Shown here: in pieces, positions 15,238 through 34,551 of the stretch
How positions within the stretch are numbered: position 1 is the first letter of the stretch
Layout: each line of letters starts with the position of its first letter
NCBI RefSeq assembly: GCF_023273855.1
Contig: NZ_CP096884.1
Span: 558,001 to 622,000 of the forward strand
Source of the DNA: Seonamhaeicola sp. ML3
Lineage (GTDB): Bacteria; Bacteroidota; Bacteroidia; Flavobacteriales; Flavobacteriaceae
Reading direction: 5' to 3'
Length of the DNA stretch: 64,000 nucleotides
Translations under genes and position numbers: made by a program
Notes under the pieces: model-generated
The model's database searches: none
What the model saw: the letters and a program-made list of their open reading frames with translations, nothing else
What the model was told of the DNA's origin: nothing

Positions 15238-15281
15238 CAAAATTACAAGTATGGTTTCGGTGGAAATATGACCAAAATCAG
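15238..15281 (-). promoter_or_regulatory. FNR-like operator and -7 element of the usp-fnr operon
   Basis: On the minus strand a -7 element TAATTTTG (complement of 15238-15245) matches TAnnTTTG. An imperfect palindrome ATGACCAAAATCAG lies at 15268-15281. The centre-to-centre distance is 33 bp, identical to the three other sites in this window. The site centre is about 59 bp from the USP start codon. Confidence 0.7.
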
Positions 15282-15302
15282 AATTTGGGACAAATAAGGA
15301 GC

Positions 15303-16352
15303 TTATTCTATTTTTTGAAGATCTGCTAAGTTGAGCACCTTGATATTCCTACCTTCAATTTCAATTAAACCTTTATCTTTAAAACGCGAGAGTGTACGTA
15401 TAAGACTTTCTGTGGCAACACCTGCTACACTTGCCAAATCGTTTCGCGAAATCCTGATAAATTCTCCCGGTCTACTACCCAACTTTTCAGCAAACCTTAT
15501 AATGGTCGTAGCTGTTCTTTTTCTCACAGAACTATATGCCATTTGAAGCAACTGGTCTTTGGCATCTACCAAGTCTTCATTTAATAACTGAATAAACTCT
15601 AAAGTTACATTATGATTGGCATGCAGAATATCTTGAAGTTCATGCTTTGAAAGCCCCAACAGGACAGTATCTTGAATGGCCGCAGCAGTTTCTTTGTAAG
15701 TAATATTTTGGGTAAAAGATGTATACCCGAACAAGTCGTCTTCTTTGTGTAAGGCCGTAGTTAAATCTTTGCCTTGTTCATCGAGTTTATGACATTTAAC
15801 AAGCCCTTTTTCTATTAAATAGATATGGTTAGAATGCTGGCCTTCTTCATAAATCGTTTCACCCTTTTTAAACTTATAGGTTTCACCATTATCATCGAAA
15901 AAATTTTTAAGATCGTTTAAATCCCTAATATCACTTTCCTCTGCTTGCTTATCGATTTCATGTTCTCTTCGTTCTTGTAAAATAGCTGCTTTTGCCAACC
16001 TACTTTCTATGGCGCTAATAAGCTCATCTTCTTCAAAAGGCTTGGTTATATAATCATCTGCACCTAAATCCATACCCTTGCGTACATCTTTGCGTTCGGT
16101 TTTGGCCGATAAAAATATAAACGGAATATGCATGGTTTCCTCATGCTTGGCCAATCCTTCTAAAACGCCATAACCATCTAATTCTGGCATCATGATATCA
16201 CACACTATAATATCTGGAACTATTTTCAAAGCGGTCTCCAAACCAGCTTTACCATTGGGAGCAGTGGTTACGTGATAGTCAGACAACTCTAATAATTCGG
16301 ATGTATTCTCTCTTAAAATTGTATCGTCTTCTATTAACAATATTTTTTTCAT
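15303..16352 (-). CDS. Response regulator receiver fused to Crp/Fnr-type cNMP-binding and HTH domains
   Basis: A 349-residue protein in three parts. Residues 1-120 are a receiver with D9/D10, phospho-acceptor D52 and K104 intact. Residues about 150-270 are a cNMP-binding fold (FKKGETIYEEGQHSNHIYLIEKG). Residues about 280-345 are a Crp-type winged helix (ISRNDLASVAGVATESLIRTLSRFKDKGLI). There are no FNR-like N-terminal cysteines, so phosphorylation is the likely input. The recognition helix has the same E-x-x-I-R residues as the neighbouring FNR-like protein, so both may read the same operator. The PAS histidine kinase directly upstream (85-bp gap) is the probable partner. Confidence 0.88.
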   Translation of the reverse strand: MKKILLIEDDTILRENTSELLELSDYHVTTAPNGKAGLETALKIVPDIIVCDIMMPELDGYGVLEGLAKHEETMHIPFIFLSAKTERKDVRKGMDLGADDYITKPFEEDELISAIESRLAKAAILQERREHEIDKQAEESDIRDLNDLKNFFDDNGETYKFKKGETIYEEGQHSNHIYLIEKGLVKCHKLDEQGKDLTTALHKEDDLFGYTSFTQNITYKETAAAIQDTVLLGLSKHELQDILHANHNVTLEFIQLLNEDLVDAKDQLLQMAYSSVRKRTATTIIRFAEKLGSRPGEFIRISRNDLASVAGVATESLIRTLSRFKDKGLIEIEGRNIKVLNLADLQKIE

Positions 16353-16437
16353 GTGTTACTTTTCATTTTTAAATAATCCTGTCGAATTTAGATGTCTTAA
16401 CCTCTTCTGTAAAGATTATTTTAAATACCTCAATTCT

Positions 16438-17679
16438 TTAACTTGCTTTATTTGGCAGTGTTATAGTGAACGAACTTCCTTTATTTTCTTCGCTGATGAA
16501 GGTTATATTGCCTCCTAAGTTATTCAAATGACTTTTTACAATATTCAGTCCAATTCCTGTCCCTTGCACTAAAAGCGCATTTTCAGCCCTAAAATAACGA
16601 TTAAATATTTGTTTTTGGTCGGCTTCTGGAATTCCCATGCCATTATCTGAAACCACAAAAGTGGTATCCGTTTCATTTTGGTCTATTTTTATATCAATAA
16701 CTGTATTCTCTGGCGAATATTTAATGGCATTATGCACCAAATTACTTAAAGATAATTCCAATATTTTTTCATCTTGATGTAATGACAAATCATCAATTTG
16801 CTTCGGATAGTTTATTTTCTGTCCTTCCTTTAAAAGCATATTGGCATTGTATATAACCTCATCAATAACTTTGGTCAATCTAAAAGTGCCATATTTGTAG
16901 GTTACCTTACCGGTTTCCAACTTTTCTACAGAAAGAAAATCATTAAGAATATTGTTAAGATAATGCACTTTATCAGAAATGGTTTTAATGTGCTTATCCC
17001 GTCTTTGCTGCTGTTCGGTTAACTTATACTTACTTAACAACATGGCAGAGGTTAAGATACCACTTAAAGGGGTTTTAAACTCATGCGATACAAGAGATAA
17101 AAATTTTGTTTTCAACTCATTAAGCTCTTTTTCTTTCTTAAGCGCATCACTAATTTTATTTTGAGCTTCTATTCGTTTTTGTATCTCAATATCTCGTTTT
17201 TTGTTGGCCTCTTTTAATTCTTCAACTGTGGTACTTAAAGCCTTTGTTCGCTCCGCCACTTTTTTCTCCAACTTACTGTTTAGCTCTTGTAACTCCTCTT
17301 CTTGTTTTTTACGAACAGAGATATCAATAACTAAGGCCATTACATAAGTATTCCCATTAAAATCCAAAGGATTAAGACCAGCCTCAACCGGAAAGGAGTA
17401 TCCACTTTTATGAGCTCCATACAAATCCCTTCCATGCCCCATTCGTCTGCTTTCTCTTGCTTTCATAAAGCCATCTACATGCTTTCCATGGCCGGCATGA
17501 TATTGTTTAGGAATTAAAATCTCTAAGTGTTGATTTAACAATTCGTCATTAGAATAACCGAACATGTGTTCAGCCGACTTATTGATAGACACGATTTTCT
17601 GGTCTTTATCAACTACAATGACCCCCTCTGAAACAGCCTCGAAAAGAGCATCAAATACATCATTACCGTTTTGAAACAT
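16438..17679 (-). CDS. PAS-domain sensor histidine kinase
   Basis: A 413-residue kinase without membrane segments. Residues about 8-125 form a PAS domain (ALFEAVSEGVIVVDKDQKIVSINKSA, later YGAHKSGYSFPVEAGLNPL). A coiled coil covers about 125-185, then HisKA with phospho-His199 in FLSLVSHEFKTPLSG, then HATPase_c with N, G1 and G2 boxes (HNAIKYSP, DNGMGIPE, GTGIGLNIV). A soluble PAS kinase next to cbb3 oxidase genes recalls FixL. The PAS has several His residues (GHGKHVDGF), but their placement is typical of generic PAS domains, so heme binding is speculative. Its likely partner is the downstream receiver-Crp fusion. Confidence 0.88.
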   Translation of the reverse strand: MFQNGNDVFDALFEAVSEGVIVVDKDQKIVSINKSAEHMFGYSNDELLNQHLEILIPKQYHAGHGKHVDGFMKARESRRMGHGRDLYGAHKSGYSFPVEAGLNPLDFNGNTYVMALVIDISVRKKQEEELQELNSKLEKKVAERTKALSTTVEELKEANKKRDIEIQKRIEAQNKISDALKKEKELNELKTKFLSLVSHEFKTPLSGILTSAMLLSKYKLTEQQQRRDKHIKTISDKVHYLNNILNDFLSVEKLETGKVTYKYGTFRLTKVIDEVIYNANMLLKEGQKINYPKQIDDLSLHQDEKILELSLSNLVHNAIKYSPENTVIDIKIDQNETDTTFVVSDNGMGIPEADQKQIFNRYFRAENALLVQGTGIGLNIVKSHLNNLGGNITFISEENKGSSFTITLPNKAS

Positions 17680-17778
17680 TATTAAACTACTAGGATTAAA
17701 TGGTTTAGAACTCGAAACAAAAAAGACGGTATGTTCACTTCGAATTTCCTGCTCATGTTGTGTAAAAATATATAAATC

Positions 17779-17822
17779 ATGACTAATATCATATTTTAAT
17801 TTTCACTTTCCCTCCACCTTTG
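17779..17822 (+). promoter_or_regulatory. FNR-like operator and -7 element of ccoI
   Basis: The palindrome ATGACTAATATCAT (17779-17792) is centred 33 bp upstream of the centre of CACCTTTG (17815-17822), which matches TAnnTTTG at every fixed position but the first. Transcription would start near 17827-17830, placing the operator at about -41. Confidence 0.75.
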
Positions 17823-17846
17823 CATTGGGTAAAAATGAGCAAATTT

Positions 17847-20222
17847 ATGGAGCATAAAACATGTTTCCACTGTGGCTTGGATGCCACATCGTCCAACATC
17901 ACTTTTGATGACAAGTCGTTTTGTTGTAACGGTTGCAAAACCGTTTACGAGATTTTTTCGGCTAACGATTTAACTTGCTATTACGATTTACAAAACGCTC
18001 CAGGAGCAACTCCAAAAGAAGTTGCCGGCAAATACAATTTCTTGGAAAACGAGAAAATTGTTGAGCAGCTCTTGGAATTTAATAGTGACGATACCGAAAT
18101 TGTAAATCTTTACATTCCGCATATTCATTGTAGTTCTTGTATCTGGATTTTAGAAAATTTAAACAAGCTCCACCCAGCCGTTAGTGCTTCCGTAGTAAAC
18201 TTTGGAAAGAAAACCGTTAGGGTTACGTATAACTCAGAAAAGACCACGCTTAAAGAGTTAGTTATTCTTTTAAGTAGTATTGGTTATGAACCTTATATTA
18301 GTTTAGAAGATTACAGCGTTGGAAAAAAGAAAACCGACCGTTCTTTAATCTACAAACTAGGTGTTGCTGGTTTTGCCTTTGGAAATGTGATGTTTCTATC
18401 CTTCCCAGAATATTTTGAAGTTGGTGAATTTTGGCTTGAAAAATACAAACACCTGTTTAGGTGGTTGATGTTTACCTATAGTTTACCTGTAGTTTTTTAT
18501 TCGGCCCAAGGTTATTTTATTTCGGCTTTTAAAGGCCTACGCTCTAAAATATTGAACATTGATGTACCCATTGCTTTAGGTGCAGCCGTGTTATTTATTA
18601 GAAGTAGTGTTGAAATTATTCTGGATTCCGGTTCTGGCTTTTTTGATAGTTTAACAGGGCTCATCTTCTTCTTATTGGTTGGTAAGTTCTTCCAACAGAA
18701 AACGTATACATTCTTATCATTCGAACGGGATTATAAATCCTATTTCCCCATCGGAATTACCAAAATAACTGATGAAGGTAAAGAGGAATCCATTCAGGTT
18801 TATGACATTAAAAAAGGCGACAGACTTCTTATTAGAAATGAAGAGCTTATTCCAGTTGATAGTATACTTATAAAAGGAAAAGCAAGAATTGATTATAGCT
18901 TTGTTACCGGAGAATCCAAAACGGTTAGTAAGCAATCTGGCGACAAATTGTTTGCCGGCGGTAAGCAAGTAGATGGTAATATTGAATTAGATGTTTTAAA
19001 ATCGGTAGAGCAAAGTTACCTCACCCAACTTTGGAGTAATGATGTCTTTAAAAAAGACAAAGCATCTTCTTTTACCACAATCACTAACAAGATTAGCAAA
19101 AACTTCACATTGGTTCTATTACTAATTGCCGTAATAGCTACGAGTTATTGGCTTGTAAATGATTCTAGCAAAGCCATTAATGTATTTACAGCGGTATTGA
19201 TTATTGCCTGTCCGTGTGCCATCGCCCTATCGGCACCTTTTACTTTTGGAAACATATTACGGATTCTGGGAAAGAAAAAATTCTATCTAAAGAATGCCAG
19301 TGTTATAGAACAATTAGCTAAAATAAATACGATAATTTTTGACAAAACCGGAACAATAACTTCCAACAAAGAGGCCTCTATAAATTATGATGGTGAAACA
19401 TTATCTGCATCTGAAGAAGCTTTACTAAAAAGTACATTACGAGGCTCTAATCATCCGCTAAGCCGTTCATTATATGAACTGTTGAATGAGCAGGACATTG
19501 TAACACTCGATGATTACCAAGAACACACCGGCAAAGGTATTGAGGCGCAATATAACAACGATTATATTAAAGTAGGTTCGGCGCCTTTTGTAGGTCATCA
19601 AGCTGAAACCACCACTCTAAATACAACTGTTCATGTAAGTACCAACAATACATACAAAGGCAAGTTCACCTTTTACAATGCTTATAGAAAGGGCTTAGCG
19701 CAACTGTTCAATATTCTTAAAAAAGATTATGATTTAGCCATTCTTTCTGGCGATAATGCAGGGGAAAAAGAGAACTTGACCAAGCTGTTACCTCCCAAGA
19801 CGAAGCTTCTGTTCAATCAGAAACCAGAGGATAAACTGGAATACATAGAATACCACCAAAGTGAAGGCGCGAGTGTTTTAATGATAGGTGACGGATTAAA
19901 TGACGCTGGTGCATTAGCCCAAAGCAATGTTGGCATCGCCATCTCAGAGAAAGTGAATGTATTCTCTCCTGCTTGTGATGCCATTTTAGATGCTTCAAAA
20001 TTTAATGAACTGTCTAATTATTTGAAAATATCGAGGTCGGCCATAAAGATTATAAAATGGAGTTTTGTGCTCTCATTCATCTACAACATCATAGGCTTAT
20101 ACTTCGCCGTTACTGGGCAATTGGCCCCTGTTGTGGCGGCTATATTAATGCCTTTAAGTTCTATTAGCATTGTGGTATTTACTACAATTTGCACCAACAT
20201 TGTTGGTAGAAGATTGAAATAA
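17847..20222 (+). CDS. ccoI: CcoI/FixI-type copper-translocating P-type ATPase
   Basis: A P1B ATPase of about 791 residues that exports or delivers Cu for cbb3 oxidase assembly. It starts with a Cys-rich segment (CFHCGL, CCNGCKTVYEIF), then a metal-binding domain with CSSC (HIHCSSCIW). The core has TGES, the transmembrane C455-P-C457 motif, phosphorylation site D499-KTGT, and the GDGLNDAGAL hinge. The CcoI/FixI class is supported by the adjacent cbb3 genes. I chose the ATG at 17847 because the predicted transcription start is near 17827-17830, leaving a leader of about 20 nt and MEHKTCFHCG as N-terminus. An ATG at 17835 is possible with a very short leader; a TTG at 17820 overlaps the -7 element and is unlikely. 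Confidence 0.92.
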   Translation: MEHKTCFHCGLDATSSNITFDDKSFCCNGCKTVYEIFSANDLTCYYDLQNAPGATPKEVAGKYNFLENEKIVEQLLEFNSDDTEIVNLYIPHIHCSSCIWILENLNKLHPAVSASVVNFGKKTVRVTYNSEKTTLKELVILLSSIGYEPYISLEDYSVGKKKTDRSLIYKLGVAGFAFGNVMFLSFPEYFEVGEFWLEKYKHLFRWLMFTYSLPVVFYSAQGYFISAFKGLRSKILNIDVPIALGAAVLFIRSSVEIILDSGSGFFDSLTGLIFFLLVGKFFQQKTYTFLSFERDYKSYFPIGITKITDEGKEESIQVYDIKKGDRLLIRNEELIPVDSILIKGKARIDYSFVTGESKTVSKQSGDKLFAGGKQVDGNIELDVLKSVEQSYLTQLWSNDVFKKDKASSFTTITNKISKNFTLVLLLIAVIATSYWLVNDSSKAINVFTAVLIIACPCAIALSAPFTFGNILRILGKKKFYLKNASVIEQLAKINTIIFDKTGTITSNKEASINYDGETLSASEEALLKSTLRGSNHPLSRSLYELLNEQDIVTLDDYQEHTGKGIEAQYNNDYIKVGSAPFVGHQAETTTLNTTVHVSTNNTYKGKFTFYNAYRKGLAQLFNILKKDYDLAILSGDNAGEKENLTKLLPPKTKLLFNQKPEDKLEYIEYHQSEGASVLMIGDGLNDAGALAQSNVGIAISEKVNVFSPACDAILDASKFNELSNYLKISRSAIKIIKWSFVLSFIYNIIGLYFAVTGQLAPVVAAILMPLSSISIVVFTTICTNIVGRRLK

Positions 20223-20282
20223 AAAAAGATATCCTTTTTATTCTAGATAGAGTAAGTATGCGAAATAATCTCATTGATTTAA

Positions 20283-20323
20283 GAGATTGCCACAGCACGT
20301 ATAAAAACGTGACTCGCAATGAC
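20283..20323. repeat. REP-like palindromic intergenic element
   Basis: An imperfect hairpin: ATTGC (20286-20290) pairs with GCAAT (20316-20320), and CACGT (20296-20300) pairs with ACGTG (20307-20311) around a six-base loop. The sequence, beginning GAGATTGCCAC and ending CGCAATGAC, resembles dispersed extragenic palindromes I recall from many genomes. It lies between ccoI and the ccoS promoter. Confidence 0.55.
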
Positions 20324-20340
20324 AGACAAAAAACATAAAC

Positions 20341-20384
20341 ATGACCATTGTCATGTTTTAAAAATGTATATGAAAGTACTTTTG
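20341..20384 (+). promoter_or_regulatory. FNR-like operator and -7 element of the ccoS-ccoNOQP operon
   Basis: ATGACCATTGTCAT (20341-20354) is a palindrome with both half-sites ATGAC, lying inside a longer inverted repeat (arms 20337-20345 and 20350-20358). Its centre is 33 bp upstream of the centre of TACTTTTG (20377-20384), a full TAnnTTTG match. The centre is about 57 bp before the ccoS start. Confidence 0.8.
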
Positions 20385-20404
20385 ATCCATAACTTCAAAT
20401 AGGT

Positions 20405-20593
20405 ATGAGTGTTATATATGTATTACTTGCTATAAGTATAATTGTAGCCGTTGGTTTTTTTATAGCCTTTATTATGGCCGTTAAGAGCGGACAATATGAT
20501 GATAGCTATACACCATCGGTACGCATGCTTTTTGAGGATGAACTCATCAAAGAAAAATCAGATAATTCAATACTAACCAAAAAAAAAGATTAA
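20405..20593 (+). CDS. ccoS: cbb3 oxidase assembly protein CcoS
   Basis: A 62-residue protein with one transmembrane helix (residues 4-26) followed by the CcoS pattern of a short cytoplasmic tail with SGQYDD and a PSVRMLFEDE segment. CcoS/FixS is needed for cofactor (heme b and CuB) insertion into CcoN. It is first in the operon, 9 bp before the ccoNO gene, and directly behind the FNR-type promoter. Gene order and length support the call strongly. Confidence 0.92.
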   Translation: MSVIYVLLAISIIVAVGFFIAFIMAVKSGQYDDSYTPSVRMLFEDELIKEKSDNSILTKKKD

Positions 20594-20602
20594 CAACTAA
20601 TT

Positions 20603-22795
20603 ATGGAGATGCAACAATTTCATTACGATAATAAAATCGTTACAAAGTTCATTTACGCCACAATAATTTTTGGAGTAGTTGGGATGTTAGTAGGTCTTCT
20701 ACTAGCATTTATGTTTTTATTCCCCAACCTTACGGATGGTATTTCGTGGCTTAGTTTTGGTAGATTAAGACCATTGCACACCAACGCTGTTATTTTTGCC
20801 TTTGTTGGTAACGCCATGTTTGCTGGGGTCTACTACTCACTGCAACGATTATTGAAAACACGTATGGCTAGTGACCTCTTGAGTAATATCAACTTTTGGG
20901 GTTGGCAGCTTATCATTGTGGCGGCAGCAATCACCTTACCTTTAGGTATTACAACTTCTAAAGAATACGCCGAATTAGAATGGCCCATAGATATCGCCAT
21001 TGCACTTGTGTGGGTGGTTTTTGGCGTGAACATGATTTGGACCATTTTAAAACGTAGACAACGTCATTTATATGTTGCTGTTTGGTTCTACATTGCCACA
21101 TTTGTAACAGTTGCAGTACTTCATATTTTTAACAGCTTGGAATTACCAGTAAGTGCTTTAAAAAGTTACTCGGTATACGCCGGTGTTCAAGATGCCTTGG
21201 TACAATGGTGGTACGGGCATAATGCGGTAGCATTCTTCTTAACCACACCATTCTTAGGTTTGATGTACTACTTTATTCCTAAAGCAGCAAACAGACCGGT
21301 TTACTCTTATAGATTATCTATAGTGCACTTCTGGTCATTAATCTTTATATACATTTGGGCAGGACCTCACCACTTATTGTACACCGCTCTACCAGAATGG
21401 GCTCAAAACTTGGGTGTTACATTCTCTGTGATGTTATTGATGCCTTCTTGGGGTGGTATGATAAACGGTTTATTAACCTTACGTGGTGCTTGGGACAAAG
21501 TTAGAACAGACCCTGTTTTAAAATTCATGGTAGTGGCAATTACCGGTTACGGTATGGCGACTTTTGAAGGGCCTACCTTATCGCTTAAAAACGTAAATGC
21601 CATTGCCCACTTTACCGACTGGATTATTGCCCACGTACACGTTGGTGCATTGGCCTGGAACGGATTCATGGCCTTTGGTATGATTTACTACTTAGTCCCA
21701 AGGTTATTTAAAACAAAAATACACTCGCTTCCATTGGCCAACCTACATTTCTGGTTGGGTACTTTAGGTATCATTATATATGCATTACCAATGTATGTTG
21801 CTGGTTTCACACAAGCCAGTATGTGGAAACAGTTTAACCCAGACGGTACTTTAGTTTATGGTAACTTCTTAGAAACAGTTACCGAGATTATTCCAATGTA
21901 CTGGATGCGTGCTATTGGTGGAACCATGTATGTGGTTGGATTGTTAATCTTAGTTTATAACGTATGGGTTACTATTAAGCACGGAAGCAAAGTTGAAGAC
22001 GAACTGGCAGAAGCACCTGCATTAGAGCGTGTAACTAAAAGGCGAACGGCCAATGAAGGATGGCATACTTGGTTAGAAAGAAGACCTATACAGTTAACTA
22101 TTTTAGCAACGGTTGCCATTCTAATTGGTGGTATTATTCAGATTGTTCCCACTATTATGGTGAAGTCTAATATCCCAACCATTGCCAGCGTGCAACCTTA
22201 CACACCTTTAGAATTGGAAGGTAGAGATATCTACATACGTGAAGGTTGTGTTAGCTGTCACTCGCAAATGATTAGACCTTTTAGAAGTGAAGTTGAACGT
22301 TACGGTGAGTATTCTAAAGCCGGTGAGTTTGTTTATGACCATCCGTTCCTTTGGGGTAGTAAACGTACAGGACCAGACTTACATAGAATTGGTGGAAAGT
22401 ACAATGACAACTGGCACTTTAACCATATGTACGACCCACAAAGTACCTCATCTGGTTCCATCATGCCACGTTATCCTTGGTTGATTACCGGTTCTTCAAG
22501 TACACTTGATAAATCACAGACTGAAGCTAAGATGCGCACCATGGTATCCTTAGGTGTTCCATATTCTGATGAAGAGATTGCCAACGCGCAACAAAGTATG
22601 ACAGCACAAGGAACTCAGATTGAAGAGAACTTGAAATCTGATCCAGACTTTGCCAGTAACTACGAAGCAGATAAAAAATATGCTGCCGATAACGGTGAAG
22701 AATTTGTGGAGATGAAGAATAGAGAGATTGTTGCACTTATTGCTTATTTACAGCGATTAGGAACAGATATTAATGTTGAAACCGCTCAGAACTAA
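20603..22795 (+). CDS. ccoN: cbb3 cytochrome c oxidase, fused CcoN-CcoO
   Basis: A 730-residue fusion. Residues 1 to about 480 are the CcoN heme-copper core (RPLHTNAVIFAFVGNAMF, GHNAVAFFLTTPFLG, WAGPHHLLYTALPEW and IIAHVHVGALAWNG with heme and CuB histidines). After a transmembrane segment at about 495-515, the C-terminal part is CcoO, with heme c motif CVSCH at about 549 and the RTGPDLHRIGGKYND block. This oxidase reduces O2 with high affinity and pumps protons. The fused form is known in Bacteroidota. Starts at 20603 or 20609 are both possible. A CcoO-type end with MKNREIVALIAYLQRLG is present, so it is complete. Confidence 0.95.
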   Translation: MEMQQFHYDNKIVTKFIYATIIFGVVGMLVGLLLAFMFLFPNLTDGISWLSFGRLRPLHTNAVIFAFVGNAMFAGVYYSLQRLLKTRMASDLLSNINFWGWQLIIVAAAITLPLGITTSKEYAELEWPIDIAIALVWVVFGVNMIWTILKRRQRHLYVAVWFYIATFVTVAVLHIFNSLELPVSALKSYSVYAGVQDALVQWWYGHNAVAFFLTTPFLGLMYYFIPKAANRPVYSYRLSIVHFWSLIFIYIWAGPHHLLYTALPEWAQNLGVTFSVMLLMPSWGGMINGLLTLRGAWDKVRTDPVLKFMVVAITGYGMATFEGPTLSLKNVNAIAHFTDWIIAHVHVGALAWNGFMAFGMIYYLVPRLFKTKIHSLPLANLHFWLGTLGIIIYALPMYVAGFTQASMWKQFNPDGTLVYGNFLETVTEIIPMYWMRAIGGTMYVVGLLILVYNVWVTIKHGSKVEDELAEAPALERVTKRRTANEGWHTWLERRPIQLTILATVAILIGGIIQIVPTIMVKSNIPTIASVQPYTPLELEGRDIYIREGCVSCHSQMIRPFRSEVERYGEYSKAGEFVYDHPFLWGSKRTGPDLHRIGGKYNDNWHFNHMYDPQSTSSGSIMPRYPWLITGSSSTLDKSQTEAKMRTMVSLGVPYSDEEIANAQQSMTAQGTQIEENLKSDPDFASNYEADKKYAADNGEEFVEMKNREIVALIAYLQRLGTDINVETAQN

Positions 22796-22813
22796 CCCTC
22801 AAAACCAGAAATC

Positions 22814-22999
22814 ATGTTAAAATTTGTAAAAAATCATATGGAGAGTATCACTGGGATAGAGATATACCCTATCATCTCCCTACTAATCTTTTTTATCTTT
22901 TTTGTAGCACTGTTTTGGTGGGTAGTATCTGCAAAAAAAGACTATATAAACACCGTTAGCAATATTCCATTAGACAACCAAAACGACGACACATTATGA
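22814..22999 (+). CDS. ccoQ: cbb3 oxidase subunit CcoQ-like
   Basis: A 61-residue single-pass membrane protein (helix about residues 17-37, IISLLIFFIFFVALFWWVV) followed by a short polar tail. Size, topology and position between the CcoN/O fusion and CcoP match CcoQ/FixQ, which stabilises the oxidase complex. The sequence of this subunit is poorly conserved, so the call rests mostly on context. Its stop overlaps the ccoP start by 4 bp (ATGA). Confidence 0.85.
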   Translation: MLKFVKNHMESITGIEIYPIISLLIFFIFFVALFWWVVSAKKDYINTVSNIPLDNQNDDTL

Positions 23000-23895
23000 G
23001 AAAATTAGTTCCATCTTGGGTAAGAGTACCCGTAGTATTCTTCATCATCTTCGGAGTTGTTGAATTCTTTATAGACTCAGGCGAAAAACCTGCCTTTATA
23101 GAATATCCCGTAGTATTACTATTTCTCTTTCTAGTACTTCTAATTTTAATCGCTATTGAAGCGATTATTGGAGCACTTGAAAATGTGATGCTTCATAAGT
23201 TAGATGAAGAAGCTAAAGCCAAATTTTTAGCCGATAAAGAAAAAGCGTATCAATTCACTTGGTTAAAGAAAACTTACACGAAACTTCTTGGACAAAAACC
23301 AATTGAAGAAGAAGGCGAAATTATCCTAGACCACAACTATGATGGCATTAAGGAGCTTGACAATAACTTACCACCATGGTGGTTATACGGATTTTATATC
23401 TCAATAATTTTTGCTGTTGTTTATCTAATTAGATATCATGTATTTGATGGCCCCGGACAAATTGATGAATTAGAAACCGAATTGGCAGAAGCCAAAATAG
23501 CCATTGAAGAATACAAGAAAACTGCCAAAGATTTGGTTGATATTAATACCGTAACACTGCTAACTGATGCTGGCGATTTAAGTGCTGGAAAAGCGGTTTT
23601 TAACACCAATTGTGTGGCCTGTCACATGGCCGATGGCGGCGGAGGTATTGGACCAAACCTTACTGATGACCATTGGATTTTAGGTGGTGGTATCAAAAAT
23701 GTATTTAAAACAGTTTCTGAAGGTGGTCGTTCCGGTAAAGGGATGATAGCTTGGAAAACACAACTAAAACCATCGCAGATAGCACAAGTAAGTAGTTACG
23801 TATTAAGTTTACAAGGTACAACGCCAGCGAACCCCAAACCACCAGAAGGTGATATTTGGGTCGCTGAAGATACAGAAGCAAAAGCACAGGAATAA
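22996..23895 (+). CDS. ccoP: cbb3 oxidase subunit CcoP, one heme c
   Basis: A 299-residue protein. It has two N-terminal hydrophobic segments (about 9-25 and 35-57), then the CcoP N-terminal domain signature (YDGIKELDNNLPPWWLYGFYISIIFAVVYL in pieces around 113-145). A C-terminal cytochrome c domain has a single CVACH motif (Cys at about 206) and a GMIAW Met ligand. Proteobacterial CcoP carries two CxxCH motifs; only one is seen here, apparently the C-terminal one. It passes electrons toward CcoO/CcoN. A hairpin (23931-23960) lies just downstream. Confidence 0.93.
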   Translation: MRKLVPSWVRVPVVFFIIFGVVEFFIDSGEKPAFIEYPVVLLFLFLVLLILIAIEAIIGALENVMLHKLDEEAKAKFLADKEKAYQFTWLKKTYTKLLGQKPIEEEGEIILDHNYDGIKELDNNLPPWWLYGFYISIIFAVVYLIRYHVFDGPGQIDELETELAEAKIAIEEYKKTAKDLVDINTVTLLTDAGDLSAGKAVFNTNCVACHMADGGGGIGPNLTDDHWILGGGIKNVFKTVSEGGRSGKGMIAWKTQLKPSQIAQVSSYVLSLQGTTPANPKPPEGDIWVAEDTEAKAQE

Positions 23896-23930: not shown

Positions 23931-23960
23931 GATTCCCTTTGTTTTTAAACAAAGGGAATC
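23931..23960. other. Perfect hairpin between ccoP and ccoG
   Basis: Arms 23931-23944 (GATTCCCTTTGTTT) and 23947-23960 are exact complements with a two-base centre. No T-run follows on the plus strand, so it is not a classical terminator; it may be a processing or attenuation point between ccoP and ccoG. It overlaps a possible TTG start at 23939, which argues against that start. Confidence 0.7.
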
Positions 23961-23977
23961 ATAAAAACCAAAATTAC

Positions 23978-25402
23978 TTGGAAACCCCAGAAAACGAAAT
24001 ATTCAGAGATTCCATAAGCACAGTTACCGAAGAAGGGAAGCGTGCCTGGGTGTATCCTAAAAAACCAAGTGGAAAATATTACGACAAAAGAAAACTTGTT
24101 AGCTATGGCCTGCTGGCATTTTTATTGGCATCGCCATTTGTAAAAATTGGCGGGAATCAATTTTTAATGTTCAACGTTCTGGAGAGACGATTTAACATTT
24201 TTGGTTTCCCTTTTTGGCCTCAAGATTTTCACTTGTTCGTTATCTCAATGATAATTGGGGTGGTATTTATAACACTGTTTACAGTGGCTTTTGGGCGTAT
24301 TTTTTGTGGCTGGATTTGTCCGCAAACCATTTTCATGGAAATGGTTTTTAGGCGTATTGAGTATTGGATTGAAGGCGACCGAAACAAACAACGCAAATTA
24401 GCACGACAAAAATGGGATGCTGAAAAGATTAGAAAAAAAGGATTAAAGCTTTTTATTTTCGTAGTCATTTCATTTTTAATAGCCAATGTATTTCTTGCCT
24501 ATTTGATTGGTGGAGACAGGTTACTAGAATACATTGTAGAAGGCCCATTTAGTCATATGGGCACACTTATACCTTTAATAATCTTTACAGCTGTTTTCTA
24601 TTTTGTATTTGCATGGTTTAGGGAACAGGTTTGCGTAATCGCTTGTCCTTACGGAAGGCTACAAGGCGTTCTTTTAGATACCAAATCGGTTGTGGTTGCA
24701 TACGACTATAAACGTGGTGAAGGCCCTAGTGGCAGAAAAAAATTTAGAAAAAACGAAGACAGACAAGCGCTTGGACATGGCGACTGTATAGACTGCTTGC
24801 AATGTGTACATGTTTGTCCCACGGGCATTGACATAAGAAACGGCACCCAATTGGAATGTGTAAACTGTACAGCATGTATTGACGAATGTGATCATATTAT
24901 GGAAAGCATCAATCTCCCAAAAGGATTGATACGCTATGCCAGTGAGGAAAACATTAAAAACAAAGTACCGTTTAAACTTTCGGCTAGAATGAAAGGCTAT
25001 ATCGCGGTCTTGACTATTTTGATTGGTATATTAACCGGTATGCTCTTTTTAAGAAATGAGGTGGAGGCTAATGTTCTAAGATTGCCAGGACAACTGTACG
25101 AGCACAAAGCAGATAATATTATAAGTAATGTGTTTACTTATAAATTGGTAAATAAAACAACACGAGACATAGAAGATGTAACGCTAAAACTGATGTCTCA
25201 CAAAGGAACTTTAAAATTAGTCGCCACGAGCGATGATTTTGTTGTTCCTAAACAAGGTATTGCAGAAGGCACCTTGTTTATTGAAATAAACAATTCGGCG
25301 TTAACTGGTGATCGTAATAAAATTAAGATTGGGGTTTTCGTTGGTGATGAATTGATAGAAACTTGTACGGCCAATTTTTTAGGCCCTAGAAGTTATAAAT
25401 AA
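23978..25402 (+). CDS. ccoG: Cytochrome c oxidase accessory protein CcoG (ferredoxin-type)
   Basis: A polytopic protein of about 474 residues with several transmembrane segments, the CGWICPQTIFMEMVFRRIEYW signature region, and two 4Fe-4S clusters of ferredoxin type (C-x2-C-x2-C-x3-CP in DCIDCLQCVHVCPTGID, and CVNCTACIDECD). A C-terminal Ig-like periplasmic domain follows a last helix. CcoG reduces Cu(II) to Cu(I) for cbb3 assembly. I chose the TTG at 23978, giving LETPENEIFRDS, which matches the usual N-terminus; the only earlier in-frame candidate, TTG 23939, is buried in a hairpin and adds residues that do not look like CcoG. Confidence 0.92.
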   Translation: METPENEIFRDSISTVTEEGKRAWVYPKKPSGKYYDKRKLVSYGLLAFLLASPFVKIGGNQFLMFNVLERRFNIFGFPFWPQDFHLFVISMIIGVVFITLFTVAFGRIFCGWICPQTIFMEMVFRRIEYWIEGDRNKQRKLARQKWDAEKIRKKGLKLFIFVVISFLIANVFLAYLIGGDRLLEYIVEGPFSHMGTLIPLIIFTAVFYFVFAWFREQVCVIACPYGRLQGVLLDTKSVVVAYDYKRGEGPSGRKKFRKNEDRQALGHGDCIDCLQCVHVCPTGIDIRNGTQLECVNCTACIDECDHIMESINLPKGLIRYASEENIKNKVPFKLSARMKGYIAVLTILIGILTGMLFLRNEVEANVLRLPGQLYEHKADNIISNVFTYKLVNKTTRDIEDVTLKLMSHKGTLKLVATSDDFVVPKQGIAEGTLFIEINNSALTGDRNKIKIGVFVGDELIETCTANFLGPRSYK

Positions 25403-26167: not shown

Positions 26168-26231
26168 ATTAATAGAATTGACAGCAATATAATAGAATTT
26201 CTAGTTTAATTAAAAATCTATAATTTTTACT

Positions 26232-26933: not shown

Positions 26934-27010
26934 AACACTCTTCTCTTTTTGAGTAATTAGACCCACGTATCTAATTGATTTTAAATTAGTTAACCAGACA
27001 ACATATTCTT

Positions 27011-27031
27011 TTCATAAGAATTTGTTATGAA
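27011..27031. promoter_or_regulatory. Inverted repeat upstream of the TetR gene
   Basis: TTCATAA (27011-27017) and TTATGAA (27025-27031) are exact complements with a 7-bp spacer. It may be an operator for the TetR-family protein or another regulator. It differs in spacing from the ATGAY-N4-RTCAT sites. Confidence 0.35.
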
Positions 27032-27067
27032 CACCATTAACAAAATCAATAGTTTTATTCTCAATAA

Positions 27068-27084
27068 TAATAGTAATACTATTA
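27068..27084. promoter_or_regulatory. Candidate TetR operator
   Basis: TAATAGTA (27068-27075) and TACTATTA (27077-27084) form a perfect palindrome around one A, 24 bp before the TetR start codon. Position and symmetry suit autorepression of the efflux operon. Confidence 0.5.
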
Positions 27085-27108
27085 ATTTAGCGCAAAATAT
27101 TATTAATC

Positions 27109-27780: not shown

Positions 27781-27782
27781 TT

Positions 27783-29441: not shown

Positions 29442-29447
29442 TTAGTT

Positions 29448-30806
29448 ATGCTTAATATATCCCATAACAAATTGAACAAAAAGGTAGATTTAAATCAGTA
29501 TAAATCTAGCAAAAACATAATGAACAAAGGCTATTACAAGTACTTTAACAGGTTCTTGCTTACAGCAGCCGTTATTTTACTTATTGTCTTATTCCTTCCT
29601 TGGACACAAAATATTACCGGCCAAGGTTTGGTAACTACCCTAAAGCCAAATCAAAGACCTCAAACTATACAGTCTCAAATTCCAGGACGAATTGAAGAAT
29701 GGTTCGTGCAAGAAGGTGCTTTCGTAAAAAAAGGAGATACTATTTTAAGAATCTCTGAGGTGAAAAGTGATTATTTTGATGATAAGCTGGTTGAAAGAAC
29801 CAATCAGCAAATTGTAGCAAAATCACAATCTGTAGAGGCTTACAGTGGAAAAGTTGGCGCTTTAAACAGACAGATTTCTGCACTAAAAAACGAACAGCGT
29901 TTAAAACTAGAGCAAACTCAAAATAAGCTATTACAAGCTAATTTAAAGGTTAAAAGCGATAGCATTGATTTAGAGGCTGCTAAAACCAATTTGAAAATTG
30001 CAGAAACACAATTTAACCGAATTCAAACGCTTCAAAACGAGGGCTTAAAGGCCGTAAAAGATGTTGAAGAGAAGCGCCTTAAACTTCAGGAGACACAGGC
30101 TAAATTTATCTCTCAAGAGAACAAGTATTTAATGAGTCAAAATGAAGTTATTAATGCTAAAATAGAGCTATCACGAATTGAAGCAACTTTTGGTGATAAA
30201 ATATCAAAAGCACAAAGTGATATGTTTACGGCCCAATCGAGCCAATTTGATACCGAAGCTCAGGTTACCAAATTAGAGAACACATATACAAACTATAAGA
30301 GACGAAATAGCTTATTGTATGTAACTGCCCCACAAAGCGGATACATTAACAGGGCAATAACAGGCGGTCTTGGTATTACATTTAAAGAAGGTCAAGAATT
30401 AGTAAGTATTATGCCTGCTCAAATAGATTTGGCGGTAGAAACTTTTGTAAGACCTATAGATTTACCACTTATCCACAAAGGTGAGAAAGTTAGAATCCAG
30501 TTCGATGGTTGGCCCGCAATAGTTTTTAGCGGTTGGCCCAATGTTTCTTATGGCACCTATGGTGCAGAAGTTGTAGCCATAGAACGTTACATTAGTGCTA
30601 ACGGAAAATACAGGGTGCTTTTAGCCCCAGATACTAACGACCATGAATGGCCTGAAGCTATTCGTGTAGGATCTGGCGCTAGGACCATAGCCTTATTAGA
30701 AGATGTACCTATTTGGTTCGAATTATGGAGACAGATTAACAGTTTTCCTCCAAATTACTATGAGCCTGAAATTAACAAAACTGCCTCAAAAAAAGATAAA
30801 AAATGA
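29448..30806 (+). CDS. HlyD-family membrane fusion (adaptor) protein
   Basis: A 452-residue adaptor with one transmembrane helix (about residues 35-50). A lipoyl-like beta segment follows (IPGRIEEWFVQEGAFVKKGDTILRI, about 75-105), then long coiled coils (about 115-275), then the second lipoyl half and beta-barrel (YVTAPQSGYINRAI, then VRIQFDGWPAIVFSGWP). It bridges the inner-membrane ABC protein to the outer-membrane channel. It lies 6 bp after the ABC gene, and its stop overlaps the TolC-like start by 4 bp (ATGA), so the exporter is encoded as one unit. Confidence 0.9.
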   Translation: MLNISHNKLNKKVDLNQYKSSKNIMNKGYYKYFNRFLLTAAVILLIVLFLPWTQNITGQGLVTTLKPNQRPQTIQSQIPGRIEEWFVQEGAFVKKGDTILRISEVKSDYFDDKLVERTNQQIVAKSQSVEAYSGKVGALNRQISALKNEQRLKLEQTQNKLLQANLKVKSDSIDLEAAKTNLKIAETQFNRIQTLQNEGLKAVKDVEEKRLKLQETQAKFISQENKYLMSQNEVINAKIELSRIEATFGDKISKAQSDMFTAQSSQFDTEAQVTKLENTYTNYKRRNSLLYVTAPQSGYINRAITGGLGITFKEGQELVSIMPAQIDLAVETFVRPIDLPLIHKGEKVRIQFDGWPAIVFSGWPNVSYGTYGAEVVAIERYISANGKYRVLLAPDTNDHEWPEAIRVGSGARTIALLEDVPIWFELWRQINSFPPNYYEPEINKTASKKDKK

Positions 30807-32203
30807 GAATAAGCTTATTAGCCATATTACTTTTTATTGGAACGGCATCTGCCCAAACTAACGATAGCATGTTAACGTTAGAAGAATATTTGGGCTATGT
30901 TAAATCTTTTCACCCTATTGTTAAGCAAGCCAATTTGGTTATTAACGAAAGCCAAGCCAAGCTCATGAAAGCTCGTGGTGCATTCGACCCAAAACTTGAA
31001 GTAGATTATGACCGTAAAAAGTTTAAAGGCACAGAATATTTTGACAAACTGAATGCTGCATTTAAAATACCTGTTTGGTTTGGTATTGAGTTTAAGGGAA
31101 ATTTTGAGGAAAATACTGGAGATTTTCTGGATCGCGAATCTGATGTTCCAATCGATGGTTTATATAGTGCTGGCGTGTCTGTTCCATTGGCTAGAGGCCT
31201 GCTAACAAATAAGCGCATGGCTACATTAAGACAATCTAGACTATACGTAAAGCAAGCGGAGGCAGATAGACAATTACTAATTAATGATATTCTATTTGAG
31301 GCTACCAAAACCTATTTTAAATGGTTAAGGCATTATAACGAAAAAATGGTTTACGAAAACTTTTTAGAAAATGCCTCTATTCGTTTTAATGGTATAAAAA
31401 AGAGCTACGAAGTTGGAGACAAACCAGCCATTGACACTCTAGAGGCTAGAATCACATTGAACAACCGTAAATTAAATTTAGAGAAAGCACGCATAAAATT
31501 TATTAAATCCTCTTTGGAACTATCGAATTACTTATGGCTAAACGATAATACTCCGGTAGAAATTAAAGAAAATATCATTCCAGATGAGGGCACATTCAAC
31601 ATTGTTGACAATATCCTTAATACGTCGGCTATTGAAATAGAAAGTTTTGATATTGAGTCGCACCCTAAATTAAGGTCGCTAGATTATAAGATTCAAAGTT
31701 TAAGTATAGAGCGAAGACTAAAAAGAAACAACCTATTACCACAGATAGACCTGCAATACAATTTCTTGTCTGAAACACCCGAAATTGCGCGATCTTTCAG
31801 CACGGCGGCTTACAAGAGCGGACTTAACATCAACTTCCCTCTATTCTTGAGAAAAGAACGCGGCGATTTGAAGTTGGCGACCATTAAACTACAGGATACA
31901 CGATTCGATCTTCAGAATACCAGACTGAGTTTAAAAAACAAGGTTGATGCCATTAATCAAGAACTAGACTCTTTTGTTACCCAGAACGACTTCACTTTAG
32001 CTATTGTAGAAGATTATTCGAAACTGTTAACTGCAGAAGAACGGAAATTCTTTTTGGGAGAAAGCTCACTGTTTTTGGTAAATTCCAGAGAATCTAAACT
32101 TATAGACTCTAAGCTTAAGGCTATTGAAATAGAGAATAGCTTTTTAAACACTAAAGCAAGTCTCTTTAATGTTTTAGCATTGTCTGATGTTCCTTTGGAC
32201 TAA
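30803..32203 (+). CDS. TolC-family outer-membrane efflux protein
   Basis: A 466-residue protein with a Sec signal peptide (residues 1-17, ending ASAQ) and the TolC pattern of two repeated helical hairpins. The N-terminal repeat contains LTLEEYLGYVKSFHPIVKQANLVI, and the second begins near SHPKLRSLDYKIQSLSIE. It should form the trimeric outer-membrane exit duct for the upstream ABC/HlyD pair. It is last in the TetR operon, which converges with a USP gene; a hairpin at 32212-32241 lies between. Confidence 0.9.
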   Translation: MRISLLAILLFIGTASAQTNDSMLTLEEYLGYVKSFHPIVKQANLVINESQAKLMKARGAFDPKLEVDYDRKKFKGTEYFDKLNAAFKIPVWFGIEFKGNFEENTGDFLDRESDVPIDGLYSAGVSVPLARGLLTNKRMATLRQSRLYVKQAEADRQLLINDILFEATKTYFKWLRHYNEKMVYENFLENASIRFNGIKKSYEVGDKPAIDTLEARITLNNRKLNLEKARIKFIKSSLELSNYLWLNDNTPVEIKENIIPDEGTFNIVDNILNTSAIEIESFDIESHPKLRSLDYKIQSLSIERRLKRNNLLPQIDLQYNFLSETPEIARSFSTAAYKSGLNINFPLFLRKERGDLKLATIKLQDTRFDLQNTRLSLKNKVDAINQELDSFVTQNDFTLAIVEDYSKLLTAEERKFFLGESSLFLVNSRESKLIDSKLKAIEIENSFLNTKASLFNVLALSDVPLD

Positions 32204-32211
32204 AAATAGAA

Positions 32212-32241
32212 GGGCGCCGAAGTCCTAAAACCTCAGCGCCC
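32212..32241. other. GC-rich hairpin between convergent operons
   Basis: Arms 32212-32222 and 32231-32241 (GGGCGC against GCGCCC, plus further pairs with two mismatches) around an 8-base loop. There is no T-run on either side, so if it ends transcription it is not a classical intrinsic terminator. Confidence 0.55.
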
Positions 32242-32276
32242 CTCTCGCGAAATTAATAACCAAAATTATAAACAAT

Positions 32277-33107
32277 CTATATCTTAAAAGTCATAACTGG
32301 CAGATTAGCATGGTTAGCGACATCTTCGCCAACACTACCTTGAAAGAAATGAGCTAAGCCCTTTCTACCGTGGGTAGCAATCACAATTAAATCTGCACCA
32401 ACTTTATTGGCACTATTTAGTATACCATCTTCTACACTATAGTCACAGACATAATGTACATCTTCCATTTTTTCTAAGTTTCGCTCTGCCTTTGTGAAAA
32501 AGTTCACAACATTCTTTTCTATTTCAACAGAGCTCTTAAATCTATCATTTGGCAAATTAACATGAACCAAATACAACCTGGAATCCATGGCATTGAACAT
32601 TTTAGAAGCTTTTAAATAAGACTCTATGGACTCTTCGGAAAAATCGCAGGCGAAAAGAACAATATCAAAATTCACTTCTCCTATATCATTTTTAACAACT
32701 AAAACCGGAACATCGGCATTTCGTATAACACGTTCGGTATTAGAGCCAATAAAAAATTCTTTAGCCCCACTTACACCATGAGATCCCATAACAATAAGAT
32801 CAGCCTTGTTAGTCCTAGCAACATCGTTAACCTCACTAAACACTTTAAAATGCTTAACGATTGGGGTAACCTTTAGCCCATTTAAATAGTCCTTCTTCAA
32901 AAACTTTTCAAATCGTTGCTCTGCCAATTTCAAAAAGTAAATTACCTTTTGTGGTTCTTCTCCCGCTCCTGTTAACATGATATCAGACATTTCCAGCATG
33001 TGCAACACCAATAGCTCGGCATTATTCTTCTTGGCTAAACTAGCCGCAGCTTTAAGTGCGTATTCAGAGTATTCGGAGAAATCTATAGGTACTATTATTT
33101 TTTTCAT
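32277..33107 (-). CDS. Universal stress protein, tandem UspA domains
   Basis: A 276-residue cytoplasmic protein with two complete UspA halves. Half 1 (MKKIIVPIDFSEYSEYALKAA; MGSHGVSGAKEFFIGSNTERVI) and half 2 (VNFDIVLFACDFSEESIESYL; IATHGRKGLAHFFQGSVGEDV) both have the G-x2-G-x9-G-[ST] nucleotide-binding loop. It is thus more intact than the USP at 14406. It sits 17 bp downstream of hemN in one transcription unit whose promoter carries the FNR-like palindrome, so low-oxygen induction is likely. Confidence 0.9.
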   Translation of the reverse strand: MKKIIVPIDFSEYSEYALKAAASLAKKNNAELLVLHMLEMSDIMLTGAGEEPQKVIYFLKLAEQRFEKFLKKDYLNGLKVTPIVKHFKVFSEVNDVARTNKADLIVMGSHGVSGAKEFFIGSNTERVIRNADVPVLVVKNDIGEVNFDIVLFACDFSEESIESYLKASKMFNAMDSRLYLVHVNLPNDRFKSSVEIEKNVVNFFTKAERNLEKMEDVHYVCDYSVEDGILNSANKVGADLIVIATHGRKGLAHFFQGSVGEDVANHANLPVMTFKI

Positions 33108-33124
33108 TATTTCTACAGTTTAGT

Positions 33125-34489
33125 TTAAACAGTCATGGAAAACAGTTGAGTGTCCGGCTGTTTCCGCTTCAACAACAAGTCAAAAGCCATACAAATGTTC
33201 CTTACGAACGGCTGTCCTTTTTTAGTCACCTCAATACTATTCGAGTTGATATTGAGTAATCCATCGGCCTCCATTTCTTTCAACCTAATCAGAGTTTCAG
33301 GAAGCTCATTAAAATATAATTTACCCCTAGTCCATTCTGTTTTAAAGGCACACATTAAATTTAAAATGTGCCGCCTTATAACAAGGTCTTCATTATTTAA
33401 AATATGACCTCTATAAACCGGGATTATGTCCTTGTCCAATAATTTATAATACGCTTCAATTCCTTTTACGTTTTGTGAAAAGCCATACCAACTATCGCTT
33501 ATCGACGACACCCCCAAACCAATCATCGCCTGAGTTTTAGAAGCAGTATAGCCCATAAAATTTCTATGTAAAGTGCCTTTATGCATGGACTTATAGAGCG
33601 TATCTGTTTCTAGAGCAAAATGGTCCATACCTATTTCATGATAACCTACCTCTGCCAATAAATCTTTTCCTAACTCGTACTGCGCTCGTTTTAGTTCGGC
33701 TGAAGGCAAATCGGTATCACTAAAACCCCGTTGTCCGTTTCCTTTAATCCAAGGCACGTGCGCATAACTATAAAAAGCTAGTCTATCGGGAAGTAAAGCC
33801 TTTGTTTTTAGTATGGTTTCTTTTACATGTTCTAGATTTTGAAACGGTAAACCAAAGATAATATCGTGCCCAACCGAGGTATATCCTATCTCTCTTGCAA
33901 GTTCGGTTGCTCGTTTTACGTTTTCAAAAGGTTGCACTCTATGAATGGCTTTCTGCACGGTTTCATTATAATCTTGAACACCATAACTCACCCTTCTAAA
34001 GCCAACATTGTACAATGCCTGTAAATGTTCACTTGTTGTATTATTGGGGTGACCCTCAAAGCTAAACTCATATTGTTCTGCAAGAACAGCATCTTTTAAA
34101 ATTCCTTTTATTAAAAACTCTAAATTTTCAGGGTTGAAAAAAGTAGGTGTGCCACCACCAAGATGCAATTCCTTAATAATAGGCTTTTCATCAAATAACT
34201 GGAGGTATAAGCCCCATTCTTTCAATACCGCATTTATATAAGGTGATTCTACACTATGCTGTTTCGTTATTCGCTTATTACAACCACAAAACGTACATAA
34301 ACTTTCGCAAAAAGGAAGGTGTATATAAAGACTTATTCCTTCTTTGGAATTGCTTTCCTTTAGTGATTTTACAAGTGATTCTTTCCATGAATTTAACGAG
34401 AACGTCCTTTCATCCCAATAAGGAACGGTTGGATAGCTCGTATACCGGGGACCCGCAATATTATACTTATTAATTAACGCTCTTGACAT
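33125..34489 (-). CDS. hemN: Oxygen-independent coproporphyrinogen III oxidase
   Basis: A 454-residue radical-SAM enzyme converting coproporphyrinogen III to protoporphyrinogen IX without O2, in heme synthesis. The cluster motif is C61-x3-C65-x2-C68 with C70 after it (PFCESLCTFCGC), preceded by YIHLPF; GGGTPTFF is the SAM glycine motif. The N-terminal GPRYTSYPTVPYW segment is typical of true HemN rather than HemW. Heme supply at low oxygen fits the nearby cbb3 oxidase genes. Its promoter (34508-34551) has a perfect ATGAT-N4-ATCAT palindrome. The downstream USP gene is cotranscribed. Confidence 0.95.
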   Translation of the reverse strand: MSRALINKYNIAGPRYTSYPTVPYWDERTFSLNSWKESLVKSLKESNSKEGISLYIHLPFCESLCTFCGCNKRITKQHSVESPYINAVLKEWGLYLQLFDEKPIIKELHLGGGTPTFFNPENLEFLIKGILKDAVLAEQYEFSFEGHPNNTTSEHLQALYNVGFRRVSYGVQDYNETVQKAIHRVQPFENVKRATELAREIGYTSVGHDIIFGLPFQNLEHVKETILKTKALLPDRLAFYSYAHVPWIKGNGQRGFSDTDLPSAELKRAQYELGKDLLAEVGYHEIGMDHFALETDTLYKSMHKGTLHRNFMGYTASKTQAMIGLGVSSISDSWYGFSQNVKGIEAYYKLLDKDIIPVYRGHILNNEDLVIRRHILNLMCAFKTEWTRGKLYFNELPETLIRLKEMEADGLLNINSNSIEVTKKGQPFVRNICMAFDLLLKRKQPDTQLFSMTV

Positions 34490-34507
34490 ACCTGACTTTT
34501 AATAGTT

Positions 34508-34551
34508 CAAAAGTATTATCTATACTGCTTTTAAAAAATGATATATATCAT
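34508..34551 (-). promoter_or_regulatory. FNR-like operator and -7 element of the hemN-usp operon
   Basis: On the minus strand the -7 element is TACTTTTG (complement of 34508-34515), identical to that of ccoS. The palindrome ATGATATATATCAT is at 34538-34551. Centres are 33 bp apart, and the palindrome centre is about 55 bp from the hemN start. Confidence 0.78.

Follow-up and report, generated by a model that had tools for sequence, protein, structure and literature searches.

Four promoters in a 64,000-nucleotide stretch of the Seonamhaeicola sp. ML3 genome (positions 558001-622000 of the 3,467,789-base contig NZ_CP096884.1; hereafter the window) carry a palindromic box at one fixed distance from the promoter element TAnnTTTG. 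The combined pattern consists of the palindrome ATGAY-N4-RTCAT, a gap of 22 bp (N22), and TAnnTTTG. It marks a family-wide regulon, which is real, is a low-oxygen regulon by its content, and has a distinct FNR-like box in a fixed, probably class II geometry. The box is likely to be a class II activator site of the CRP/FNR type that would be read at low oxygen by two regulators encoded in the window, named here A and C, with A predicted to repress its own gene.

The four promoters of the window and the fixed spacing

The box of the ccoS-ccoNO promoter, ATGAC-N4-GTCAT, lies on the forward strand at 20341-20354 (ATGACCATTGTCAT), and its -7 element at 20377-20384 of the same strand is TACTTTTG. 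A T-tract (20356-20359, forward strand; -33 to -30) follows this box directly on the promoter side. The hemN-usp box, ATGAT-N4-ATCAT, is found on the reverse strand at 34538-34551 (coding strand ATGATATATATCAT), and TACTTTTG is again the -7 element, at 34508-34515 on the reverse strand. The ccoI box, ATGAC-N4-ATCAT, occupies 17779-17792 of the forward strand (ATGACTAATATCAT). Its -7 element (17815-17822, forward strand) begins with C; the first T is missing in relatives too. The box of the usp-fnr unit, CTGAT-N4-GTCAT, is located on the reverse strand at 15268-15281 (coding strand CTGATTTTGGTCAT) and contains a single mismatch, its first base being C instead of A; a 22-bp gap separates it from the -7 element TAATTTTG (15238-15245, reverse strand). 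On re-reading of the sequence, the predicted coordinates of the four palindromes were all correct, and the predicted 33 bp between box centre and -7 centre were found at 4/4 sites, with a 22-bp gap at each. The motif is thus present at all four sites, but with one mismatch in the usp-fnr box and an initial C in the ccoI -7 element. TAnnTTTG, the -7 element of Bacteroidota sigma-A, is matched at three of the four promoters, and ccoI has CACCTTTG in its place.

With at most one mismatch, the palindrome alone has 14 matches in the window against 8.8 expected, and 9 of 100 shuffles reach that number. The palindrome without the spacing is not significant in the window and was rejected as the signal. 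The combined pattern, also with at most one mismatch, has four matches in the window. The shuffled mean is 0.02, and 0 of 300 dinucleotide shuffles reach four, which rules out chance as the source of the combined pattern. The signal in the window is the fixed distance and not the palindrome, which alone is near chance.

The position -41.5 is that of a class II activator. The original prediction had placed the boxes at this class II position, near -41, and this fits the published start geometry of Flavobacterium psychrophilum. The available part of that study places TAnnTTTG at -12 to -5 relative to mapped starts (PMC9723704), and the box centre, 33 bp from the -7 centre, would therefore be at -41.5, a figure transferred from the starts of another flavobacterium. 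The same part of the study reports strong up-regulation of the cbb3 oxidase and up-regulation of heme-pathway enzymes under oxygen limitation, and contains no description of this box (PMC9723704). No description of the box, or of a receiver-CRP fusion in such a role, came up in literature searches that covered the open-licence papers of PubMed Central.

Content and conservation of the regulon

The combined pattern is found in the whole contig 4 times exactly, 21 times with at most one mismatch, and 47 times with at most two, while a reversed-pattern control gives 20 matches with at most two. Window shuffles scaled to the genome give expectations of 0, 1.1, and 23, respectively, and therefore only the matches with at most one mismatch are meaningful by themselves. 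The matches with exactly two mismatches (26, against about 22 expected) form a class not clearly above chance. At 18 of the 21 sites an open reading frame starts 10 to 82 bases past the -7 element, the small frame at 20405 being taken as the downstream frame of ccoNO. Two of the remaining three sites lie within other reading frames, and no gene was found for one.

Targets at these 18 sites are, among others, ccoS-ccoNO, ccoI, hemN, usp-fnr, pyruvate formate-lyase (pflB), phosphate acetyltransferase (pta), and the class II ribonucleotide reductase NrdJ. They further comprise a citrate/sulphate-type transporter, an Rrf2 regulator, a CBS protein (so named from its sequence), a TonB C-terminal protein, and two porin-like proteins, one with Pfam Alginate_exp. 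A further target is an ABC substrate-binding protein that is nitrate-like by reading and has in NCBIfam only SsuA-family matches below the cut-off. The content foreseen for the regulon, with the cbb3 oxidase, its copper pump, and hemN, is supported, and genes of anaerobic metabolism stand behind the conserved box as well. A thioredoxin-fold protein (G000:C1:1684849) is also one of the 18; proteins of similar sequence are boxed in four relatives (L054, L057, L058, and L059), one of them checked with Pfam. A 604-residue protein of the set, behind a one-mismatch box (L264:1918-3729), has no family match in Pfam or NCBIfam. Genes behind two-mismatch sites include nrfH, RIC for iron-sulphur repair, an iron-containing alcohol dehydrogenase, a further universal stress protein (usp), and a multiheme cytochrome, which is presumably a part of alternative complex III; all of these are candidates only.

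In the window, ccoI (17835-20222, forward strand) encodes a heavy-metal P-type ATPase, with copper assigned by context. The small frame at 20405-20593 is probably ccoS, as named from its place before ccoNO rather than by a family search, and ccoNO (20603-22795) encodes fused cbb3 oxidase subunits, both on the forward strand. The oxygen-independent coproporphyrinogen dehydrogenase gene hemN (33125-34489, reverse strand) has radical SAM in Pfam and is named by sequence; a universal stress protein gene (32277-33107, reverse strand) comes after it.

The conservation of these promoters was followed in named loci, which are the best 80 of at least 532 relatives of A. They include Gaetbulibacter, Algibacter, Flavivirga, Kordia, Psychroserpens, and Bizionia, and they were chosen by similarity to A, so that all of them carry A. 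At ccoNO the combined pattern precedes the gene without a mismatch in 66/71 orthologues and with at most one in 70/71. Upstream of ccoI it has one mismatch in 69/75 orthologues and at most two in 72/75, and 69/69 of the one-mismatch sites deviate at the first T of the -7 element, which the window lacks too. All seven usp orthologues (7/7) have the exact pattern. A match to hemN occurs in only 4 of the 80 named loci, with no box of at most two mismatches in the searched stretch. The gene is present in 50 of 52 genomes searched, and the best 30 of these 50 loci carry the box in 30/30 cases, 20 exact and 10 with one mismatch; there it lies about 15 to 22 bases ahead of the aligned start. At ccoNO and hemN the T-tract at -33 to -30, which is outside the search pattern, is conserved, whereas it is less pronounced at ccoI and usp.

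The reversed pattern gave no match with at most two mismatches upstream of ccoNO, ccoI, and usp in the named loci. The genes ccoP-like (22996-23895; named by position and sequence rather than by a family search) and ccoG of the FixG family (23939-25402), both on the forward strand, have a combined pattern with at most two mismatches upstream in 0/69 and 0/64 orthologues, respectively, and the box was rejected as a property of internal operon genes. The C and kinase genes have no box upstream in six named loci each, where the best matches have four and three mismatches, respectively. Two outcomes had been set beforehand as counting against the original prediction, namely orthologous promoters lacking the palindrome, and as many random hits as hits at respiration and heme genes. 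Neither was seen: the palindrome is kept with at most one mismatch at ccoNO (70/71), ccoI (69/75), usp (7/7), and hemN (30/30), and the sites, with respiration and heme genes among their targets, are non-random, with 21 in the genome against about 1.1 expected.

The spacing was surveyed in 120 genomes of a family whose nearest named relatives are the Flavobacteriaceae, and the gap between the palindrome and TAnnTTTG was allowed to vary from 8 to 36 bp. This free-gap pattern has 632 matches in 106 of the 120 genomes, compared to 86 for the reversed control. Among the 150 of the 632 matches listed, 98 have a gap of 22, 14 a gap of 23, and 5 a gap of 21, and no other gap occurs more than three times. 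The canonical FNR box TTGAT-N4-ATCAA has 113 matches in the 120 genomes against 36 reversed controls (summed by eye). Gap 22 accounts for 10 of the 113, which is above most other gaps, and the maximum is 14 at gap 26. The canonical box has no dominant spacing and was rejected as the main signal.

A draw of 247 genomes across the phylum shows a strong signal for the family itself and also for three genomes that belong to a different family in the same order (27 matches against 2 in the control, by eye). The signal is weaker across the rest of the class, where 31 genomes have 57 matches against 13 (by eye), and counts are low for most other families of the phylum. An exception outside the window's class is the family f22 (G142, G285, G308, G320, and G336), with 23 matches against 2 in the control (by eye).

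The targets in relatives are similar in kind. From 55 loci, 43 sites with gaps of 21-23 were read; a gene starts within 250 bp of 42 of these sites, and 5 fall in long reading frames. The genes hemN, ccoNO, ccoI, and usp recur by sequence among these targets. Pfam was applied to 10 of the 42 targets and gave a thioredoxin fold, a pyridine nucleotide oxidoreductase, a PfkB kinase, an S30AE ribosome hibernation-type protein, cytochrome c, phosphoenolpyruvate carboxykinase, a 2-oxoacid ferredoxin oxidoreductase, NadA, formate-tetrahydrofolate ligase, and, below the cut-off, a LysR-type helix-turn-helix (HTH).

Candidate regulators of the box

The genome encodes five proteins with a Crp-type HTH. 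The recognition helices of A (ATESAIR) and C (ATESLIR) are nearly identical, a third protein, B, has the sequence EEQVIR, and the other two differ. The helix Glu and Arg are invariant in the aligned orthologues of A (19) and C (15). Regulator A (13693-14370, reverse strand) is an FNR-like CRP/FNR protein with an N-terminal CxxC and is a candidate reader of the box. It comes after the universal stress protein gene that is the first of the usp-fnr unit (14406-15215, reverse strand). Regulator C (15303-16352, reverse strand), the second candidate reader, combines a receiver, a CRP/FNR sensor, and an HTH. A PAS histidine kinase gene adjoins C (16438-17679, reverse strand). A is separated from ccoI by usp, C, and the kinase.

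FNR reads TTGAT-N4-ATCAA, has Glu209, Ser212, and Arg213 in its recognition helix, and carries the cluster cysteines C20, C23, C29, and C122 (Escherichia coli numbering); its DNA binding is controlled by an oxygen-labile [4Fe-4S] cluster. A contains PF00027 and PF13545 above the cut-off, which correspond to a domain resembling cyclic nucleotide monophosphate (cNMP)-binding domains and to a Crp-type HTH. A profile of 19 A orthologues matches FNR 5cvr at 7e-27, and the best match is the Crp/Fnr-family structure 2gau at 9e-34. When A is compared to the FNR chain 9qlt, C4, C7, and C106 fall on cluster cysteines, so that A keeps three of the four and differs in this from the four-cysteine FNR. A separate C29 of A is invariant in the 19 aligned sequences. 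Glu191 and Arg195 are present and invariant in A, and the position of FNR Ser212 is taken by Ile194 in A and by Ile in C (by eye). The conserved box ATGAY-N4-RTCAT is likewise not the canonical FNR box. The AlphaFold model of A has a mean predicted local distance difference test (pLDDT) score of 75.8 and about 55 in the first 20 residues; around the N-terminal cysteines this is too low for a judgement on a cluster.

C consists of a receiver, a cNMP-binding domain, and HTH_Crp_2, and has no LuxR-type FixJ output domain. The PAS domain of the adjoining kinase is nearest to the heme-PAS oxygen sensors, with the FixL PAS 1d06 (3e-13) and DosP (3e-12) as the best PDB matches. His64 of the kinase is kept in 28/33 and Arg84 in 30/33 covering sequences, the window's own and one identical pair being counted. 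These residues align with what are taken to be the heme ligand and the distal arginine of FixL. By these alignments the kinase is a candidate heme-PAS-like, FixL-like oxygen sensor.

The palindrome of ccoI is within 65 bp of the start of the divergent A gene in 65 of the 72 named loci with a ccoI site. In 61 of the 80 named loci, exactly 8 bp separate the palindrome from a downstream TAnnTTTA/G, which is presumably the -7 element of A itself; 8/80 have the palindrome without an A -7 element, and 11/80 have none within 62 bp. A palindrome near -27.5 would cover the A promoter, and for this reason A is predicted to be autorepressed; A probably represses its own gene. Three loci (L186, L193, and L206) appear to have a second, imperfect palindrome nearer A beside the one shared with ccoI (by eye).

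A was scored as present at 50% identity or more in 69 of the 120 surveyed genomes, and C by full-length matches in 54. The mean number of free-gap matches is 8.6 in the 27 genomes with both, 5.6 in the 42 with A only, 5.2 in the 27 with C only, and 0.9 in the 24 with neither, where the control mean is 0.6 and 9 of the 22 matches come from one 82%-complete genome. The difference between C-only genomes and those with neither has a Mann-Whitney p of 1.6e-7, uncorrected for relatedness. Gap 22 is found in 99/141 matches of the C-only genomes, and a hemN box with at most one mismatch in 6/6 of those examined. The preserved boxes of the C-only genomes are a firmer point than the co-occurrence means. 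Because genomes with A only and genomes with C only both carry boxes, the single-regulator reading is too narrow. The low-oxygen regulon of the original prediction is supported, but its single FNR-like regulator, A (13693-14370), is probably half of the answer.

Several observations weigh against the proposal that A and C share one box. Related genomes are non-independent samples, and 22 of the 24 genomes with neither regulator are also without ccoNO. For this reason co-occurrence cannot separate the loss of a regulator from the loss of its targets, and it is weaker evidence than at first sight. The other two of the 24 both have boxes: G048 (82% complete) contains an exact one, and G020 contains a one-mismatch box together with a diverged A-like protein. 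Of 26 C-only ccoNO promoters (L310-L335), 3 have an exact box, 8 have one mismatch, 14 have two, and one has no box. Their boxes begin with C in 18/25 cases and have TAnnTTTA in 15/25, unlike the loci that carry A, and A and C may therefore differ in preference. The likeness of A to FNR extends to the Glu and Arg of the helix but not to the Cys29 position, which is Asn (N13) in 19/19 aligned orthologues. B (G000:C1:2627708-2628457) is a third CRP/FNR protein with a related helix, and the small excess of the canonical box at gap 22 may leave room for its weak use.

B has a cysteine-rich N-terminus and heads a cluster (G000:C1:2627708-2638355; L257) whose genes look like those for globin, c-type cytochrome, ABC transporter, and porin proteins. 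Within this cluster, downstream of B, are two box sites with one mismatch each.

Proposed mechanism, rival readings, and known systems

The sequence [A/C]TGAY-N4-RTCAT would act as a CRP/FNR-type activator site centred at about -41.5, upstream of a T-rich -33 element and TAnnTTTG. When oxygen falls, a CRP/FNR dimer on the box would recruit RNA polymerase to the promoters of the cbb3 oxidase, the copper pump, hemN, usp, and fermentation genes. One reader would be A, which is FNR-like and has three of the four FNR cluster cysteines, and the other would be C, a probable phosphorylation target of the neighbouring heme-PAS-like, FixL-like kinase. Where relatives lack the C, kinase, and usp genes between A and ccoI, a single palindrome would activate ccoI at gap 22 and cover the A promoter at gap 8. 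The chances are about even that two oxygen inputs converge on one box in this way in Flavobacteriaceae, the one FNR-like and the other running from a FixL-like kinase to a receiver-FixK-like fusion in a cascade one step shorter. In that case the regulators would interchange in evolution while regulon and geometry stay fixed, and the ccoI palindrome would repress the FNR-like gene.

It is improbable that only A reads the box, with C controlling other genes and the co-occurrence being incidental. The placement of the ccoI palindrome beside A (within 65 bp in 65/72 loci) and the fixed 8-bp gap (61/80) favour this, in loci that were chosen by A, but 27 genomes without A keep gap 22 (99/141), the ccoNO box (25/26 with at most two mismatches), and the hemN box (6/6). 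A small and similar probability is given to C, or another paralogue such as B, as the main reader, with A in a minor or opposing role. The recognition helices of C and B are related, the C gene lies beside the operons, and the cluster downstream of B contains two one-mismatch boxes; against this, the 42 genomes with A and without C carry as many boxes as the C-only ones.

A and C have been placed on the box from their sequences, which leaves room for an unrelated transcription factor, such as a dimeric repressor acting on these genes. This is very unlikely, since the TGA half-site, the 4-bp centre, and the position at -41.5 are those of FNR-type activators, and boxes are few in genomes without A and C (mean 0.9), though most such genomes are also without the oxidase. 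The probability that chance produced the four matches, given an AT-rich genome, is negligible. The near-chance count of the palindrome alone in the window points that way, but the reading is already refuted by the 0/300 shuffles and the conservation in orthologous promoters.

As a proposed shared site of A and C, the box resembles the sites of the E. coli FNR regulon in its five-base half-sites, TGA core, 4-bp centre, and probable class II position. The helix Glu and Arg, the low-oxygen targets, and the predicted autorepression are also in line with that regulon. In contrast, the outer base of the box is A or C and not T, the Ser212 position is Ile, and the Cys29 position is Asn in A. The promoter is of the Bacteroidota kind, with TAnnTTTG and a T-tract at -33, and the box seems to have a second reader in a receiver-fused paralogue. 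The rhizobial FixL-FixJ-FixK cascade controls fixNOQP and fixGHIS. Like it, the window has a heme-PAS-like kinase, a receiver, and a CRP/FNR output adjoining cbb3 oxidase and copper-pump genes. However, C unites the receiver and the CRP/FNR output in a single protein, in place of a FixJ with a LuxR-type output domain. TAnnTTTG and its place relative to the start resemble those of Bacteroidota sigma-A promoters in the available part of the F. psychrophilum study (PMC9723704), whereas the upstream activator box and the missing first T of the ccoI -7 element differ from them.

The analysis yields a box that can be tested, a precise promoter geometry, a list of candidate genes, and two candidate regulators. 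If it is true that both regulators read one site, the family would represent a natural experiment in which the sensor was replaced and the regulon kept. The geometry would aid the reading of flavobacterial promoters.

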